Below, piece by piece: positions 3,984-39,887 of a stretch of 47,103 bases of DNA. Positions within the stretch are counted from its first letter, which is position 1. Every line of letters starts with the position of its first letter. The notes below the pieces were generated by a model, which saw only the letters and a list, made by a program, of their open reading frames with translations, did not search any database and was not told the DNA's origin. Made by a program: the position numbers and the translations under genes. This stretch comes from a bacterium (lineage in GTDB: Bacteria; Patescibacteriota; Minisyncoccia; UBA6257; 02-FULL-45-10c): contig JAUSKT010000012.1 of NCBI GenBank assembly GCA_030646915.1, forward strand, positions 68,663 through 115,765. The letters are read 5' to 3'.

Positions 3984-6440
3984 TTATAAACAAACTACTC
4001 CAACCACTTTATCTCCAGAGCTTACATTCATAATCCGGACGCCTTGAGTTGCCCGGCCGCTTAGCCTGATACTTTCAATCGGAGTGCGGATGATTTGTCC
4101 TTTAGCAGAAAGTGCTAAGATTTCTTTTTCCTCATTAACCATCGGAGAGGCAATGACTTGTCCGGTTTTCGTAGTGACTTTAGAAGTTTTGATTCCAGAT
4201 CCGCCTCGCCCTTGGACTTTATATTCGGAAAGCGGAGTCCGTTTACCAAAACCGTTTGCCATAACAGTCAATAATTGCCCCTTTTCATTTTCCTTAGTGA
4301 CAATATTAAGCGCTACGACAGAATCTCCTTTTCTAAGCCGGATTCCGCGGACGCCCGAAGTAGCCCGGCCCATTGAACGGAGCTGGGATTCTTTAAATCG
4401 GATTGCCTGGCCTTGTGCAGTGGCTAGAGTTACCTGATCGTTTCCGGAAGAAAGCCTTACCCACTGGAGCGAGTCACCTTTTTTTAATTTGATTGCGATA
4501 ATTCCGTTCCGGCGGACATTGGAAAAATCTTGAAGAGGAGTTTTTTTAATCAGGCCATTATGAGTGACTATCACCAGGAATCCAGGAATTGATTTTTTCT
4601 CGGCAGGATAAGTAATAATAGCGCTTATTTTTTCTTCAAGCGGAATTTCTAAGAAATTATGAATTGCTTTTCCTTTGGCAATCCGGGTCGCTTCAGGAAT
4701 TTCAAAAACTTTTGTTTGGAAAACCCGTCCGCGCTCGGTAAAAAATAAAATATTGTCATGAGTGTTGGAGGTCATGAAGTGGCTTAAGAAATCTTCTTCC
4801 GCGACATCGGATCCGATCAATCCTTTGCCGCCGCGTTTTTGCGAACGGAAACTGGAAGGCGGAACGCGCTTAATATATCCGCCCTGGGACATAGTGATTA
4901 TAGTTTCTTCTTTTGGAATTAAATCTTCCTCGTTAAATTCTTTAAGTCCGCCAATAACCACCTTTGTTTTTCTTTTATCGCCGTACTTTTCTTTTATTTC
5001 TTGCATTTCGTCTTTTACAACCTTAAGAATTTTAGCTGGGCTTTTTAAAAGAATATTTAATTCATCAATTATTTTTTTCTTTTCTTTCAGTTCTTCCTCG
5101 ATTTTTTCTCTTTCCAGCGCAGCGAGAGTCTGAAGCCGCATTTCCAAAATCGCTGTTGTCTGAAGATCGCTGAATTTAAATTTACTGACTAAATTTCTAT
5201 GCGCCTCTTCTTTGTCTTTGGATTTTTTAATAGTGGTAATAACGGCGTCAATATTTCCAAGAGCCTTATGAAGTCCCATTAAAATATGGGCGCGCTCCTC
5301 GGCTTTTTTAAGATCAAATTCTGCCCGGCGCCTGACTATTTCTTTTCTGTGTTCAATATAAGCAAGAAGAATATCTTTTACCGACATTACTTCAGGCTGT
5401 AAGCCATTTTTAGTCAGCGCAATCATATTCAAGTTGAAATTCTTTTGCAGGTCAGTGAATTGGAAAAGTTGGTTTAAAACTTTTTGCGGAGCCGAGTCAT
5501 TTTTCAATTCAATAATAATCCGGAGGCCGTCTTTATCAGATTCGTCCCGGACATCCCTAATCCCTTGCACTCTTTTTTCTGTAACCAGTTCGGCAATTTT
5601 AATAATCAATTCTGATTTGTTTACTTGGTAAGGAATTTCAGTGATCTCAATATTATATTGGCCTTTTTTCTGTTCTACTACCTCGGTTAACGCGCGGGTA
5701 GTGATAGCTCCATGCCCTGAGGCGTAGGCTTCACGGATGGCTTTTTGGTCATAAATAATTCCGCCGGTTGGAAAATCCGGGCCTTGGATAAATTCCATTA
5801 AATCAATAGCAGTAGCTTTTGGGCTGTCTATTAAATGGGAAGCGGCATCCACTAATTCTGATAAATTATTTGGAGGAATATTAGTTGCCATTCCTACGGC
5901 AATGCCGACAGTTCCGTTTAAAAGCAAATTCGGGAATTTTGCCGGCAAAACTTTCGGTTCTTGGCGGCTGCTATCATAATTTGGATTCCAATCAACAGTC
6001 TCTTTTTCTATATCTAATAGAAGCTCCTCAGACATTTTAGATAATCTGGCTTCTGTATAACGATAAGCGGCAGCCGAATCGCCATCAATACTTCCAAAAT
6101 TGCCTTGCCCTTCTACTAATGGATAACGGAGAGAAAAATCTTGCGCCATGCGGACCATAGCTTCATATACTGAAGAATCGCCATGGGGATGGTATTTGCC
6201 AAGCACTTCACCCACAATATTCGCGGATTTTTTAAATTTCGCTGAATGAGTAAGCCCGCTATCCCACATTGCCCAAAGAATCCTTCTTTGTACTGGCTTT
6301 AATCCATCCCGGACATCCGGAAGGGCGCGGGAAACAATGACAGACATCGCGTAATCCAAATATGACTCCTGCAATTCATCGGTGATTTCCCTGTCTTCTA
6401 TTCCGCTATGTAATTTTGGTTTTTCTTTTTCTTCTTTCAT
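3984..6440 (-). CDS. gyrA: DNA gyrase subunit A
   Basis: [38 protein letters not shown] … [35 protein letters not shown]; GyrA-type beta-pinwheel C-terminus. Confidence 0.97.
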
Positions 6441-6557
6441 CCCGTTAGAGGCAGGTCGCGGTCTATTTGACTTAGTCCCGCCTTGAATTTAATTAATGTT
6501 TTGAATAATAACCTTTTTATATATAATCCCGCTAGCGACCGCGGCCTCTAACGGGAT
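6439..6557. repeat. CCCGTTAGA-family palindromic element (gyrA copy)
   Basis: atcccgttagaggcaggtcgcggtc … gcgaccgcggcctctaacgggat; gyrA ATG abuts the CGGG terminus. Confidence 0.85.
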
Positions 6558-11090: not shown

Positions 11091-11198
11091 ATCCCGTTAG
11101 AAAATTAACAAACATGTTTAACTTAACTAAAAATTTATTCAAGCATTATCGGAAGTTTTCAGTCGGCAAGATGTTTAATTTAATTTTCTAAACGGGAT
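11091..11198. repeat. CCCGTTAGA-family palindromic element (ftsH copy, ~108 bp)
   Basis: atcccgttagaaaattaac … ttaattttctaaacgggat; ftsH ATG is the terminal ATG. Confidence 0.85.
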
Positions 11199-21681: not shown

Positions 21682-23658
21682 ATGTTAACTTTATTAATTT
21701 TTATACCAGTTGTTTTAGCTGTTACTTACAGTGTTTATCTAATGCTTTGGCTTCAAAAACAGCCCAATGGAAATGCAAAAATGGTTGAAATTGCCGCTGC
21801 TATTCAGGATGGGTCGGCTGCTTTTTTGAATCGCCAATATAAAAGTGTGGCTGTTGTGGCCGCTATTTTACTTATTGCTATTTATTATTTATTAGGAGGA
21901 ATGTCCGCTCTCGGATTTTTAATCGGGTCTTCTGCGTCTGCTTTGGCTGGTTATATCGGAATGAATGTCGCAGTGCGGTCTAATTCTAAAACTGCAGAAG
22001 CCGCAAATCAAGGCTTGAATTCCGCGCTATCTCTCGCTTTCAGGGCTGGTTCAGTTACAGGATTTTTAGTTGTTGCCCTAGGTCTTTTATCAATTGCCGG
22101 ATTTTATCTTGCGACTAATGATGTTAAAGCTTTAATCAGTTTAGGTTTTGGCGCAAGTTTAATTTCAATTTTTGCCAGATTAGGAGGGGGTATTTACACT
22201 AAAGCCGCGGATGTGGGAACTGATTTAGTTGGAAAAGTTGAGGCTGGAATTCCAGAAGATGATTTGAGAAATCCAGGCGTGGTTGCGGATCTTGTGGGTG
22301 ATAATGTCGGAGATTGCGCTGGAATGGCCGCGGATCTTTTTGAAACTTACGCGGTTACTCTTATCGCAGCAATGCTTCTTGGTTCATTAATTGATAAAAG
22401 CGCAACCAGCCCATTGGTAGTTTTTCCTTTGGTTCTTGGCGGCCTTGCGATTGTGGCATCGCTTATAGGAAGTTTTTTTGTAAAAGTTAATCAGGGCGGT
22501 TCTATAATGGGAGCTTTATATAAAGGCTTGATTGCATCCTTGGTTGTATCAGCAGTTTTATTTTATCCAGCGGCAAGATTTTATTTTGGCGAGGGATATT
22601 GGAATTTTTATCTTGCGACTTTAGTCGGGCTTTTAGTTACTGCATTAATGGTGGTAGTGACGGATTATTATACGGCAAAAAATTATCGGCCGGTTAAATC
22701 CATAGCTGAAGCCTCTAATTCCGGACATGGCACCAATATTATTATTGGGCTTTCTGTTGGTATGGAATCTACTTTTATTCCAATTTTAATTATCGTCGCA
22801 GCAACTTTAGTCAGTTATTTTCTTGCCGGACTTTATGGAATTTCTTTGGCGGCAACTTCAATGCTTTCAGTTGCCGGAATTATCGTGGCAATTGATTCTT
22901 TTGGGCCGGTTACGGATAATGCCGGAGGCATAGCGGAAATGAGCGGCGCTCCTGCTAATGTCCGTAACATTACCGATGCGCTTGATGCGGTTGGCAATAC
23001 TACTAAAGCCGTTACTAAGGGCTATGCGATTGCTTCTGCTGGACTTGCCGCGCTTGTGCTTTTTACGGGCTATGTCGAAGAATTTGCGGCAAAATCCCAA
23101 AACTTAGCTTTTGACTTAAAAGATCCGTATGTTGCTGCTGGGCTTTTGTTGGGTGCTGCAATTCCATATCTTTTCGCTTCAATTGCAATGAAATCAGTTG
23201 GTAATGCTGCTGGAGCGGTAGTGGAAGAAATTAGGAGGCAATTCCGGGAAATTCCTGGAATTATGGAATTTAAAGCTAAGCCGGATTATGCCCGTTGTGT
23301 TGATATTGTTACTAAGGCTGCATTAAAAGAAATGATAGTACCGGCAATAATTCCAATTTTGTCTGTAGTTTTAGTAGGAGTATTTCTCGGACCAAAAGCG
23401 CTGGGTGGATTTTTAATGGGAACTATTGTTGCTGGAATTTTCTTGGGGATTTCCATGACGACTGGCGGAGCTGCTTGGGATAATGCGAAAAAATATATTG
23501 AGAGCGGAAATTTTGGCGGAAAAGGTTCTGAAGCCCATAAAGCCGCCGTCACTGGCGATACTGTCGGCGATCCATACAAAGACACTGCCGGTCCGGCAAT
23601 CAATCCCTTGATTAAAGTTATAAATATTGTTGCCCTTCTTTTAGTTCCATTTTTATAA
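21682..23658 (+). CDS. hppA: membrane-bound H+-translocating pyrophosphatase, probably K+-independent
   Basis: [67 protein letters not shown]. Confidence 0.96.
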
Positions 23659-23664
23659 AATGAA

Positions 23665-24049
23665 ATCCCGTTAGAGATAACCATTTATCCCGTTAGAAAA
23701 TTAACAAATATGAAATTTTTAAATCAAAACTTATCAAGGATTATAGAAAGTCTTATGTCCCTAAGGCACCGGGTTTAATTTTCTAACGGGATGAATTATG
23801 TCTACGTTATACGGAGTAAAAAGAGCGGATATTTGTATACTGGGTATACGGCCGATCTACGGAAACGTTTTAACCAGCATAACGAGAATAAACATGGTTT
23901 TACTAAAAAACGGGGACCATGGGAACTTATCTACTATGAAGCATGTCATAATCAACAAGATGCAACGTCGAGAGAAAAATATTTAAAATCGGGAATGGGC
24001 AAGCGTTACCTAAAAAACAGGTTAAAACGTTTCCTATCTCTAACGGGAT
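23665..24049. mobile_element. repeat-bounded unit carrying a GIY-YIG ORF (CCCGTTAGAGATA … TATCTCTAACGGG outer inverted repeats)
   Basis: Outer IR atcccgttagagata/tatctctaacgggat enclosing an inner CCCGTTAGA element and the ORF; ORF stop lies in the right repeat. Confidence 0.6.
23687..23792. repeat. CCCGTTAGA-family palindromic element (GIY-YIG copy, ~106 bp)
   Basis: atcccgttagaaaattaaca … ttaattttctaacgggat. Confidence 0.85.
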
Positions 24050-24051
24050 GA
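23791..24051 (+). CDS. single-domain GIY-YIG nuclease-like protein
   Basis: MNYVYVIRSKKSGYLYTGYTADLRKRFNQHN. Confidence 0.88.
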   Translation: MNYVYVIRSKKSGYLYTGYTADLRKRFNQHNENKHGFTKKRGPWELIYYEACHNQQDATSREKYLKSGMGKRYLKNRLKRFLSLTG

Positions 24052-25298
24052 AACACACACTTAAAAAATTACCAGATTCAATTGTAGAGCTGGAGGTAGT
24101 TTTGGATCATGACGAGTTTTTGAATTATTGGCAGCCGGTTTATGACGCGGCGCTTTCGGGTGTTCATTTGAAAGGTTTTCGTCCTGGAACTGCGCCAAAA
24201 GATATGGCGGAAAAAGCCGTGGATAAAGAAAAAGTTTTTAGCGAGGCAGCTAACAAAGCAATCCGTGATTCTTTGCAGGAAATCAATGAAGAAAATGATT
24301 GGCAATTAATTGACCAGCCGAAAGTGGAAGTTTTGGAAAGCGAAAAAGGATTAAAATTTAAAGCAACCCTCACAATTTTCCCGGAGGTGAAAATTGGAAA
24401 TTATGGAAAAATTGTTAAACGCGTAATTTCTGATAAAAAAGAAGCCGTTATCACCAGCGAGGAATTGGAAAAATCCATTAATTGGGTTTTGGGTTCCCGG
24501 GCGAAAATTGTGAAAGCTAATCACGAAGCTAAAAAGGGCGATTTGGTGGAAGTGGAATTTTCCGGTTCTGTAGATGGAAAGCCCTTGGATGGCGCTAGCG
24601 GAAAATCTGACCAGTTTATTTTAGGAGAAGGAAAATTTATTGCCGGTTTTGAAGAAAATATTATCGGCCATAAATCCGGAGAAAATCTGGAATTTTCCGT
24701 TAATTTTCCGAAAGATTACTGGAAAGAGGATTTGCGGGATAAAAAAGTGGATTTTAAAGTTAAGGTGGAAGAAGTTTTTGACCGGCAATTGCCGGAATTA
24801 AATGATGAATTTGCCAAAGGATTAGGCAAATTTGAAACTGCAGAAGATCTTAAAAAGAGCATTAAAGACGGGATAATGAAGGAAAAATTGGAAAAAGAGA
24901 AAGAAAAAAACCGCTTGAAAATAATGGAAGAGATCATTAAGGATTCCAAAATTGAATTGCCTAAGGTCATGGTGGAACGGACTTTGGATAATTTGGTGGC
25001 GGAATACAAAGCAATGGTTTCTCCGGCCTTAAAAAAACTTGAAACCGACGAAGAAGTTAAAAAAAGATTGGAAGATAAAGCTCGGAGTAGCGTCGCCAGT
25101 AATTTGGTTTTATATCAGATAGCCAAAGACCAGAAATTAGAGCCGTCCCAAGAAGAAGTGGAAAAAGAAACCAATGCATTTTTGTCTAATTCTCATTTTT
25201 CCCGTGATCCGCAAATTGACCCGCAAAAAGTTTATGATTATAGTTATGGTATAGTTCAGAATCGGAAAGTTTTTGAGTATCTTGAGTCGTTAAAATAG
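24048..25298 (+). CDS. tig: trigger factor
   Basis: N-terminal ribosome-binding domain with KGFRPGTAPKDM, FKBP-like domain (GDLVEVEFSGSVDGKPLDGASGKSDQFILGEGKFIAGFEENIIG). Confidence 0.93.
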   Translation: MKHTLKKLPDSIVELEVVLDHDEFLNYWQPVYDAALSGVHLKGFRPGTAPKDMAEKAVDKEKVFSEAANKAIRDSLQEINEENDWQLIDQPKVEVLESEKGLKFKATLTIFPEVKIGNYGKIVKRVISDKKEAVITSEELEKSINWVLGSRAKIVKANHEAKKGDLVEVEFSGSVDGKPLDGASGKSDQFILGEGKFIAGFEENIIGHKSGENLEFSVNFPKDYWKEDLRDKKVDFKVKVEEVFDRQLPELNDEFAKGLGKFETAEDLKKSIKDGIMKEKLEKEKEKNRLKIMEEIIKDSKIELPKVMVERTLDNLVAEYKAMVSPALKKLETDEEVKKRLEDKARSSVASNLVLYQIAKDQKLEPSQEEVEKETNAFLSNSHFSRDPQIDPQKVYDYSYGIVQNRKVFEYLESLK

Positions 25299-27589: not shown

Positions 27590-30100
27590 ATGTTTATAAA
27601 AATACTAAAGTTTGGCGGTTCTTCAGTGGGCACGTCGAAAATGATTAAAAAAGCCGGTGAAATTGTTAAAATTGCATCAAAAAAAGAAAAAGTTGCAGTT
27701 GTTGTTTCTGCATTTCAGGGGGTTACGGATCAGCTTCTAAAATGCGCTAAATTGGCGGTTAAAAATGGCAGTAATTTAGATGAGGTAAAGAAATTAAAAA
27801 ATAGGCATACAAAAGCAGTAAATCAATTAGCCAAAAGCCAAAAGTTAAAAGCAGAATGTCAAGAGTATATTGAAAATTTATTTCAGGAATTATCGGCAGT
27901 TTCAGATGAAATTCAAAAAGAGAAATTCATTTCTGATAAAAATTTGGATTTAGTTGCGAGTTTTGGCGAGCGGCTGTCCGCTTATATTATTGCGGCTTCT
28001 GTTAAAAATGCTTATTTTGTTGATGCGCGCGATTTGGTAAAAACCGATGATAATTTTACAAACGCCGCAGTAGATTTTAATAAAACAAACCGCCGGGTAC
28101 AGAATTTTTTTAGAAATAAAAAAGGAATTCCGGTTATAACAGGATTTTTAGGTTCAACCAGTAAGGGCGAAACCACTACTTTGGGGCGAGGAGGATCAGA
28201 TTATACCGCTTCGATATTTGGAGCTGCTTTAGGCGTGAAAGTCGTTGAAATTTGGACTGATGTGGATGGAGTGATGAGCGCCGATCCAAAGCTGGTAAAA
28301 AACGCCCAAGTTTTGCCTAAGATCAGCTATGAAGAAGCTATAGAAATGGCATATTTTGGCGCAAAAGTTATACATCCAGCGACTATGCTTCCGGCTATTA
28401 AAAAAGGTATTCCTATACTTATAAAGAACACTTTTAATCCGAAGGCGCACGGAACTTTAATTTCTAAAGAATTTGTCTTACAACCTCTGGTAAAATGCGT
28501 TACTTCAGTTGATAATGTTGCTTTGATAAATATCGGCGGGGTAAGTTTGGCTGGCATTCCGGGGAGCGCTGCCAGGGTTTTTGAAGCGACTGCCCGCGCA
28601 AAAGCCAATGTGATTTTAATTTCTCAGGCTTCTTCCGAAAACACTATTTGTTTCGCGATTAAATCCGGCGAATTAAAATCGGCGCTGTCCGCGCTTAAAA
28701 AGGAATTTCAAAAAGAAATAAAATCCGGACAAGTTAATTTAGGCATCATTTTAAATCAGTCCATTCTTGCAATGGTTGGCGATGGAATGTGCGGCGTTCC
28801 GGGAATTGCCGGCATGCTTTTTAGCGTTTTGGGCGGTGAAGGGGTTAATGTTTCAGCGATTGCGCAGGGCGGATCAGAAAGAAATATTTCTTTCGTGGTG
28901 GATTCAGCAAGTAAGATAAAAGCTTTAAATGTCGCGCATGATGAATTCTTTTACTGCGGACGGAAAAATATTTTCTTAGTCGGAACCGGGAATATTGGCG
29001 GGGCGCTTTTGGATCAGATAAAAGATCTCCAAAAAAATGGCAGCGCATTGAGGATTTGCGGAATCATAGATGCGTTCCATATGCTTCAAAATGAACGAGG
29101 CAATAATCTTTTAAATTGGAGGAAAACTTTTGAAAAAGGAGAAAAGCCCAACTTAGAAAAATGGCTTTCTTGGGCAAAAGTTTTGCCGGTTGGAAATAAA
29201 GTTTTCGTTGATTGCACGGCAAGCGATGGCGTTGCTAAAAAATATATTGAAATGGCGGAAGCCGGCTTCCATATCGTGACTCCGAATAAGAAATTTAACG
29301 TTTTTCCGATGAAAGAATATAAAAAGTTGCGGGAAGTAATGGCGAAGAATAAAAAGCGGTTTTTATACGAAACTAATGTTGGCGCGGCGCTTCCTGTGAT
29401 TTCCACTTTGCAAGATTTATTAAAAACTGGCGACAAAATCACTAAAATTGAAGGAATTTTTTCCGGGACCCTTAGTTATATTTTTAATAATTTTGGTAGT
29501 CCCGTTAGAGGCCGCGAGGGCACGCAGCGCGCCTCTGCCTCTACCGGGATGGCGGCTACGAAATCATTTAGTGAAGTCGTGGGAATGGCCAAAAAACTTG
29601 GATACACGGAACCGGATCCAAGAGAGGATTTGAATGGCAATGATGTCGGCAGAAAGCTTTTGGTGCTTGCTAGAGAGACGGGCTTAGAAATGGAAATGAT
29701 AGATGTAAAAATTGAAAATTTGGTGCCAAAATCACTTCAGAAATTAAAAACCAGCGATGAATTTTTGAAAGTATTGCCGAAATATGACGATTATTTTAAA
29801 AAGCGCTTAGAAAATGCGAAAAAGAAAAATAAAGTTTTGCGGTACGTTGCAAAACTTAGTCCCGTTAGAGGCCGCGAGGGCTCGCAGCGCGCCTCTGCCT
29901 CTAACGGGATTGGGTGGCGTGCATCAGCGTCATTGCAAGCGATAAGCTTAGATAATCCGCTTTCGGCTACTAAAGATGCTGATAATATTTTTGCGTTTTA
30001 TACCAAGCGATATAATAAAAGGCCCTTGGTCGTTCAGGGTCCGGGCGCTGGGAGAGAAGTAACGGCTGGGGGAGTGTTGGCGGATATACTCAGAATTTAA
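27590..30100 (+). CDS. thrA: bifunctional aspartate kinase/homoserine dehydrogenase
   Basis: KFGGSSVGTSKMIKKAG kinase start; ACT domains; HSDH motifs VGTGNIGGALLDQI, GTLSYIFNNF, GYTEPDPREDLNGNDVGRKLLVLARE. Confidence 0.94.
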   Translation: MFIKILKFGGSSVGTSKMIKKAGEIVKIASKKEKVAVVVSAFQGVTDQLLKCAKLAVKNGSNLDEVKKLKNRHTKAVNQLAKSQKLKAECQEYIENLFQELSAVSDEIQKEKFISDKNLDLVASFGERLSAYIIAASVKNAYFVDARDLVKTDDNFTNAAVDFNKTNRRVQNFFRNKKGIPVITGFLGSTSKGETTTLGRGGSDYTASIFGAALGVKVVEIWTDVDGVMSADPKLVKNAQVLPKISYEEAIEMAYFGAKVIHPATMLPAIKKGIPILIKNTFNPKAHGTLISKEFVLQPLVKCVTSVDNVALINIGGVSLAGIPGSAARVFEATARAKANVILISQASSENTICFAIKSGELKSALSALKKEFQKEIKSGQVNLGIILNQSILAMVGDGMCGVPGIAGMLFSVLGGEGVNVSAIAQGGSERNISFVVDSASKIKALNVAHDEFFYCGRKNIFLVGTGNIGGALLDQIKDLQKNGSALRICGIIDAFHMLQNERGNNLLNWRKTFEKGEKPNLEKWLSWAKVLPVGNKVFVDCTASDGVAKKYIEMAEAGFHIVTPNKKFNVFPMKEYKKLREVMAKNKKRFLYETNVGAALPVISTLQDLLKTGDKITKIEGIFSGTLSYIFNNFGSPVRGREGTQRASASTGMAATKSFSEVVGMAKKLGYTEPDPREDLNGNDVGRKLLVLARETGLEMEMIDVKIENLVPKSLQKLKTSDEFLKVLPKYDDYFKKRLENAKKKNKVLRYVAKLSPVRGREGSQRASASNGIGWRASASLQAISLDNPLSATKDADNIFAFYTKRYNKRPLVVQGPGAGREVTAGGVLADILRI
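29501..29550 (+). repeat. in-frame CCCGTTAGA-family insertion 1 in homoserine dehydrogenase
   Basis: cccgttagaggccgcgagggcacgcagcgcgcctctgcctctaccgggat, encoding SPVRGREGTQRASASTGM. Confidence 0.9.
29861..29910 (+). repeat. in-frame CCCGTTAGA-family insertion 2 in homoserine dehydrogenase
   Basis: cccgttagaggccgcgagggctcgcagcgcgcctctgcctctaacgggat, encoding SPVRGREGSQRASASNGI; 2 differences from insertion 1. Confidence 0.9.
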
Positions 30101-39781: not shown

Positions 39782-39887
39782 CCCGTTTAGAAAATTAAAT
39801 TAAACATCTTTCCGACTAAAGACTTCCGATATTGTTCCATAAAATTTTTATTAAATGTAAGCATAGTTATTAATTTTCTAACGGGAT
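39780..39887. repeat. CCCGTTAGA-family palindromic element (hsp20 copy, ~108 bp)
   Basis: atcccgtttagaaaattaaa … taattttctaacgggat; hsp20 ATG abuts the terminus. Confidence 0.85.

Follow-up and report, generated by a model that had tools for sequence, protein, structure and literature searches.

Structure of the Element at the tig Start Codon

The window, which is the whole 47,103-bp stretch of DNA analyzed here, contains a short ORF between hppA and tig. This ORF of 86 aa was found to encode a GIY-YIG domain (Pfam PF01541, E = 7.5e-20; a T5orf172 match was weak) and is the sole gene of an element enclosed by perfect 15-bp outer repeats, ATCCCGTTAGAGATA at 23665–23679 and its exact reverse complement TATCTCTAACGGGAT at 24035–24049. 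A 5-bp duplication, TGAAA, is present on either side (23661–23665 and 24049–24053), which sets the limits of the element at T23666 and A24048. The features of the locus are:

21682–23658, + strand: hppA, host gene on the upstream side; tig comes immediately after it in genomes G003, G005, G012, and G013
23661–23665, + strand: left copy of the target duplication TGAAA (from sequence, duplication statistics and empty sites); A23660 + TGAAA is the original tig ATG
23666–24048, + strand: whole GIY-YIG element (from sequence and from relatives without the element at the same site)
23666–23679, + strand: left terminal inverted repeat T-CCCGTTAGAGATA, exact reverse complement at 24035–24048
23688–23791, + strand: inner insertion, a non-autonomous E-type element (T-CCCG..CGGG-A, 104 bp) on the GIY-YIG start codon, flanks TTTA / TGAA
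23791–24051, + strand: GIY-YIG nuclease gene, 86 aa, ending ..KRFLSLTG*, last codons within the right repeat, TGA stop from the target
24035–24048, + strand: right terminal inverted repeat TATCTCTAACGGG-A, whose last A restores the tig ATG
24049–24053, + strand: right copy of the target duplication TGAAA (from sequence)
24048–25298, + strand: tig (trigger factor), the host gene, targeted at its start codon (from the ORF and relatives)

The coordinates of the outer inverted repeat and of the ORF given in the original prediction proved exact on direct reading. The same was true of its claim that the ORF stop falls in the right repeat end: the TGA at 24049–24051 overlaps the tig ATG at 24048–24050, as ATGA. 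The prediction had also treated the inner repeat as part of the packaging of the ORF. Its coordinates were right (CCCGTTAGAAAATTAA..TTAATTTTCTAACGGG at 23689–23790, length approximately 104–106 bp), but its role as a terminus of the element was not: the inner repeat is a later E-type non-autonomous insertion at the GIY-YIG gene's own start codon and not the left end of the element. The inner junctions read ..CCATTTA/T-CCCG...CGGG-A/TGAATTATG, with no matching flank duplication (TTTA/TGAA). The present element measures 383 bp and would measure approximately 277–279 bp without the inner insertion, compared to 272–283 bp for 73 of 74 homologous elements (see below).

The repeat is abundant around the locus. 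Within the window CCCGTTAGA occurs 13 times versus 0.30 expected, a number reached in none of 100 shuffles, and in the 599-kb genome TCCCGTTAGA occurs 80 times versus 0 for the reversed control, mostly as facing pairs 40–113 bp apart.

Homologous Elements and Target Duplications

A single scan of the GTDB genomes identified 80 homologs of the nuclease with 66–80% identity (one with 59%). These span many classes of Patescibacteria as well as Omnitrophota, Desulfobacteraceae, Planctomycetes, and others, some of them on contigs of more than 240 kb. The ORF was located exactly between the repeats in 74 of the 80 homologs, and the size range given above applies to the core between these limits. The packaging of the ORF between family termini that had been read from a single copy, and the occurrence of the same GIY-YIG subfamily beside these palindromes elsewhere, which had been proposed as a check, are thus both seen in many phyla. 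As at tig, the right repeat encodes the last residues of the ORF (..KRFLSLTG), and the target usually gives the stop codon.

The two arms of the repeat are kept complementary. The outermost base pair was complementary in 73 of 74 elements (shuffle maximum 52), being T:A in 41, C:G in 31 and G:C in one. Changes in the arms compensate each other, with 28 double changes and one mismatch at position 12, and three each at positions 8, 10, and 11.

A 4-bp direct repeat was found to flank 46 of the 74 elements (shuffled maximum 32). Among the 30 elements with a right flank other than TGAA, 12 showed a 4-bp duplication (shuffle maximum 8), and the short copies in G000, the genome that contains the window, showed one in 27 of 50 cases (shuffle maximum 15), besides a 5-bp duplication in 5 of 50. 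A matching flank was absent from 28 of 74 elements (4 bp) and from 15 of 50 short copies (3 bp), including the inner copy described above; thus, the flanks of some copies have decayed or insertion is at times imprecise. The boundaries could also be read from genome G006, which contains three copies of another GIY-YIG element with approximately 90% identity: the similarity ends exactly at the repeats, and the right end of each copy makes an ATGAAA start.

The same element was detected on long non-Patescibacteria contigs in a Phycisphaerales (L136, 278 kb) and in an Omnitrophota (L122, 242 kb), which suggests transfer of the element between phyla. Two copies on small contigs assigned to Woesearchaeota or Bacillota (L084 and L071) may be binning errors. 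A single viral relative, and a weaker one (58% identity), was present in IMG/VR, so phage carriage is not likely to be the main route. A defense system had been considered as well and was rejected, PADLOC giving no match.

Empty Sites in Related Genomes

The four genomes in which hppA is directly followed by tig, without an insert, belong to the same family. The tig start codon is filled by the GIY-YIG element in G000 and by short copies of the same repeat type in G002 and G001. A corresponding series was found at the pyrG start in genus g83: the site is empty in G120 (97% identical protein), carries a GIY-YIG element in G122 and G119, and carries a short copy in G121. Since relatives have empty sites, the hppA–GIY-YIG–tig arrangement is derived, and a vertical, ancestral arrangement is ruled out. 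Empty hppA–tig sites in sister strains were what the original prediction had proposed to look for, and an arrangement that was ancestral and invariant would have spoken against it; the sites in relatives are instead empty or differently filled, which marks the element as mobile on sequence comparison.

In two further genomes, G015 (L270) and G010 (L273), the tig start codon was hit independently by short elements of a different repeat family (CCCACACATAATAAAG / CCCCCACATAACAAAG).

Short Copies Without a Nuclease Gene

Short copies with the ends of the element but without the nuclease gene were found in the window. Apart from the inner copy, these are:

6440–6556, - strand: non-autonomous copy of C type on the start codon of a minus-strand ORF (818 aa), target duplication TGAAA
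11092–11196, + strand: E-type non-autonomous copy, right end TCTAAACGGG, flanks TGAA/TGAA
15268–15339, + strand: 70-bp non-autonomous copy, flanks GTGAAA/TGAAA
29500–29550, + strand: copy of the 48-bp type, right end worn, in frame in the aspartokinase/homoserine dehydrogenase ORF (27590–30100)
29860–29909, + strand: 48-bp copy PVRGREGSQRASASNG, in frame in the same ORF (27590–30100)
39782–39886, - strand: non-autonomous copy of E type on a start codon, flanks TGGA/TGGA

The E type is represented by approximately 30 related copies in the G000 genome. Most E copies (e.g., those at 11092–11196 and 39782–39886) contain an extra A in the right repeat (TCTAAACGGG) and are missed by an exact nine-base search.

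The number of repeats was shown to follow the presence of the nuclease. Taking a close nuclease as one with E at or below about 1e-41, the median number of TCCCGTTAGA sites was 23 in 30 genomes with and 1 in 215 genomes without it (p = 2.6e-15, within the order). When the element's own two ends were removed, at least 10 sites remained in 22 of 30 genomes with a close nuclease versus 21 of 215 without. Exceptions were found in both directions, and these could be incomplete assemblies or genomes that have lost their masters. Genomes G191, G026, and G088 contain almost no short copies despite the nuclease (2 sites each). Two repeat-rich genomes, G099 (62 sites) and G220 (33 sites), gave no detected close GIY-YIG gene, for which a lost master copy, an assembly gap or another driver are candidate readings.

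Insertions and the Reading Frames of Host Genes

The insertions appear to spare the host gene. In 39 of 74 elements, an ORF of 60 codons or more (or one open to the contig end) takes its start from the right end, with tig, pyrG, fmt-like and pilC-like genes among the hosts, and placement at a start codon was also seen for most C, D, and E short copies of the G000 genome. In the rebuilt start codon the A comes from the element and the TG from the duplicated target.

The E copies, which are all sense-oriented, contain a frame (MNPVRKLINMF..LIF*) that begins at the host ATG and stays open until a TAA within the right repeat, immediately ahead of the restored ATG. This frame was free of stops in 26 of 28 copies, compared to 14.1 expected when the same substitutions were placed randomly (none of 200,000 simulations reached 26). 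No codon periodicity was detected in the E-type ORF, which argues against a peptide function; what counts seems to be that the frame is open, not that a peptide is made, and the open frame may serve coupled translation.

Within genes, copies of 48, 66, and 75 bp lengthen the sequence by 54, 72, and 81 bp, respectively, when the terminal bases and a 4-bp duplication are counted. They lie mostly in frame within long ORFs, twice in the homoserine dehydrogenase of the window, where both inserts (29500–29550 and 29860–29909) are absent from the aligned yeast enzyme structure. In pilin genes, elements with C:G ends restore the prepilin motif, the left side reading ..RGFTPLEI.. and the right side ..SLTG-FTLIEIMLVVVIIGILAA. 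Four loci (L090, L118, L122, and L133) showed an insertion in the prepilin GFTLIE; the right end restores GFTLIE, and the left reads GFTPLE in three of the four.

Nuclease Subfamilies and Their Terminal Repeats

More distant GIY-YIG genes in the same genomes were in many cases found to have long perfect repeats of their own, e.g., CCCACACATAACTTACAC, CCCAGTAACTCAACTTCA, CCCGGTGCTACAACTTCG, CCCTGTTAAATAATTT, and CCCCGTTAGATA. Repeats of at least 13 bp were present at 50 of 66 GIY-YIG genes scoring at least 95 bits versus 4 of 309 other ORFs; about a quarter of these high-scoring genes thus showed no repeat by the same scan. Different terminal inverted repeats of 14–23 bp were observed at GIY-YIG genes outside the subfamily at L049, L050, L051, L060, L036, L200, L207, L220, and others. 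The occurrence of own repeats at GIY-YIG genes outside the subfamily indicates that the phenomenon is that of a superfamily.

Similarity of the left repeats tracked similarity of the proteins across 53 elements (Mantel r = 0.73; none of 5000 permutations reached this value, maximum 0.18), a correlation that partly reflects common descent. The ends differ between subfamilies along with the nuclease, e.g., CCCGTTAGAGA versus CCCACACATAACTTAC. In pattern searches CCCACACATAACTTAC was found in 3 of 17 genomes, all three with the matching GIY-YIG nuclease, and CCCAGTAAYTCAACTTC in 4 of 244 genomes, all of f23, three of these four with an element of that subfamily. The C-terminal helix of the protein varies together with the repeat type (MGKRYLKNRL, WGKRYIKxRL, GKMFIKNRL, IGRRFLKKRL, and QGLRRLKERL). 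The proposal in the original prediction that the GIY-YIG protein mobilises the non-autonomous copies nearby gains support, at the level of sequence, from these cognate termini and from the association of repeat number with the nuclease.

AlphaFold2 predicted a GIY-YIG fold with confidence (pLDDT 91) and, at the C terminus, a long basic helix. Residues Y5, Y16, R24, H30, and E62, which are of active-site type, were invariant, and the nearest solved folds were UPF0213 proteins (1zg2 and 1ywl), SLX1 and the I-TevI catalytic domain.

Proposed Mechanism and Alternative Explanations

We consider the element a minimal autonomous transposon in which a stand-alone GIY-YIG nuclease acts as the transposase and mobilises the short copies in trans, and we assign this reading a probability of roughly 0.85. 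One GIY-YIG gene of approximately 86 aa would fill an element of approximately 280 bp with perfect terminal inverted repeats of 12–23 bp. The nuclease would recognise its own repeats, probably via the basic C-terminal helix, which varies between subfamilies along with the repeats, and would cut the ends of the element and a short target with the consensus TNNA, A^TGAA at start codons being its commonest form. Host enzymes, presumably ligase and repair functions, would then join and fill, giving the 4-bp (3–5 bp) duplication. Cutting by the GIY-YIG protein, its catalysis, excision and strand transfer, as well as the order and chemistry of the steps, are proposed from what the sequences suggest. 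GIY-YIG enzymes hydrolyse DNA and we know of none that joins strands; insertion therefore needs a host step, which is an assumption of the model.

With T:A as the terminal base pair, the ATG of the downstream gene would be restored by the right end (..CTAACGGG-A) and the duplicated TGAA together. The stop codon TGA of the nuclease comes from the host start codon, so translation could pass from ORF to ORF by coupling and the insertion would be nearly neutral. Short copies without a nuclease would be mobilised in trans, those at start codons leaving a reading frame uninterrupted between the host ATG and the right end, and the 48-, 66-, and 75-bp forms adding whole codons within genes.

The explanation that competes most seriously with this model concerns the mechanism only and not the role of the nuclease in mobilising the element. 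An SLX1-like nuclease might cut branched or hairpin DNA, the ends folding into a hairpin at replication forks, with resynthesis by template switching in place of cut-and-paste. It is a serious rival because the complementarity of the arms is strictly kept, by compensatory changes, and because SLX1, the nearest well-studied fold, acts on branched DNA; the near-perfect hairpins among the short forms and the variation in duplication length from 0 to 5 bp also favor it. On the other side, more than half of the copies have clean 4-bp duplications and exact boundaries that resemble staggered cutting, and we regard the hairpin route as possible, at perhaps one chance in four. That the GIY-YIG gene is a passenger, with the repeats moved in trans by another transposase, e.g., of Y1/RAYT or DDE type, appears improbable. 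Y1 transposases were present in 6 of 10 genomes tested and some repeat-rich genomes lack a detected nuclease, but a search with PF01797, which covers Y1 transposases, found none in G000, G011, G031, and G136, which contain 80, 40, 84, and 48 repeat ends, respectively. These four repeat-rich genomes without a Y1 transposase show that a RAYT-type driver is not needed; moreover, the nuclease is the only gene of the element in every copy, and the repeat sequence tracks the nuclease sequence across many repeat types.

Homing, in which cleavage of a specific target is followed by copying of the element through homologous recombination over matching flanks, is suggested by the domain itself, which is that of homing endonucleases, by I-TevI among the closest folds and by phage homing endonucleases that match weakly (a model of group I intron endonucleases stayed below the cut-off). 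However, the targets have only about 4–5 bp in common and the copies are spread over genes and phyla that are unrelated to one another. Homing does not lead one to expect inverted repeats, short target duplications or non-autonomous derivatives, and the element has neither intron nor intein, the host gene being readable without splicing; we therefore hold homing to be very unlikely. Least credible of all, and close to untenable, is an immobile element, i.e., a conserved regulatory hairpin upstream of genes with a nuclease kept vertically between hppA and tig. Many copies do lie at translation starts with the frame open, but in relatives the same gene pair lacks the insert or has another one at that codon, and the same element was found before unrelated genes and even within pilin genes.

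Under the transposon model, a stand-alone GIY-YIG protein would be a complete transposase of an undescribed catalytic class, in one of the smallest autonomous transposons (approximately 280 bp), mobilising start-codon and in-frame elements, and the subfamilies with their own repeats would form one superfamily across Patescibacteria, Omnitrophota, and other phyla. We find this wider proposal probable, although well short of certain. The prokaryotic transposases known to us are DDE, HUH, serine, tyrosine or Cas1 enzymes, to which a GIY-YIG transposase, if true, adds a catalytic class, in an element close to the lower size limit for an autonomous transposon. It would also account for the abundance of stand-alone GIY-YIG genes in the tiny genomes of Patescibacteria. 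Hitting a start codon and then rebuilding it would allow spread through compact genomes at low harm, and the 74 natural examples, with repeats and proteins matched, make the targeting rules directly testable. A literature search, which covered no preprints and few subscription papers, gave no description of such a system, the nearest being PMC11270868, and priority is not certain.

Comparison with Known Systems

REP/RAYT systems (TnpA-REP, Y1/HUH) resemble the element in that a single small nuclease gene is flanked by palindromes with many non-autonomous copies in the genome. The catalytic domain, however, is GIY-YIG (PF01541) here and not HUH (PF01797), the ends are long mutual inverted repeats with target duplications of 4–5 bp, and the copies favor start codons and ORFs over extragenic space. 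Insertion sequences with a DDE transposase and their MITEs likewise have terminal inverted repeats, short target duplications, empty sites in relatives and short non-autonomous derivatives. The usual insertion sequence is far larger than approximately 280 bp, whereas the protein here is an 86-aa GIY-YIG nuclease, with no DDE, HUH, serine or tyrosine transposase inside the element, and the host start codon is regenerated.

To our knowledge, no nuclease gene has been associated with the Rickettsia palindromic elements (RPE). These are, like the short copies, short palindromic elements in frame within protein-coding genes, and RPE are read in frame inside protein genes (PMC10969869, a review). 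The sequences and the hosts differ, and here a nuclease gene with the same ends is known; the present elements provide a testable system for the old question of how in-frame palindromic elements in bacterial genes originate.

GIY-YIG homing endonucleases of the I-TevI type have the same catalytic domain and conserved active-site residues, but the element is found at many unrelated targets and not at a single allelic target with homologous flanks. Inserts coding for GIY-YIG proteins have been described in CPR rRNA genes that are neither group I nor group II introns and are not homing-like, together with many short unexplained inserts, in a report whose main text does not mention inverted repeats, transposons or palindromes (PMC11270868, 2024). 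In contrast to these, the elements described here are found in protein genes, with defined termini and with derivatives. They may nevertheless explain those non-intron GIY-YIG inserts; none of the 40 loci scanned lay in a structured RNA gene, so the link stays a prediction.

UPF0213/YhbQ proteins, which are stand-alone GIY-YIG proteins as well, are the closest solved relatives in sequence and fold, and the repeat link was examined here in Patescibacteria and neighbors. We know of no description of UPF0213/YhbQ proteins as transposases. Among eukaryotes, Penelope-like retroelements are mobile and contain a GIY-YIG endonuclease together with a reverse transcriptase, and they move through RNA; the element at tig, in contrast, has a single 86-aa ORF and no reverse transcriptase, and is bounded by terminal inverted repeats.
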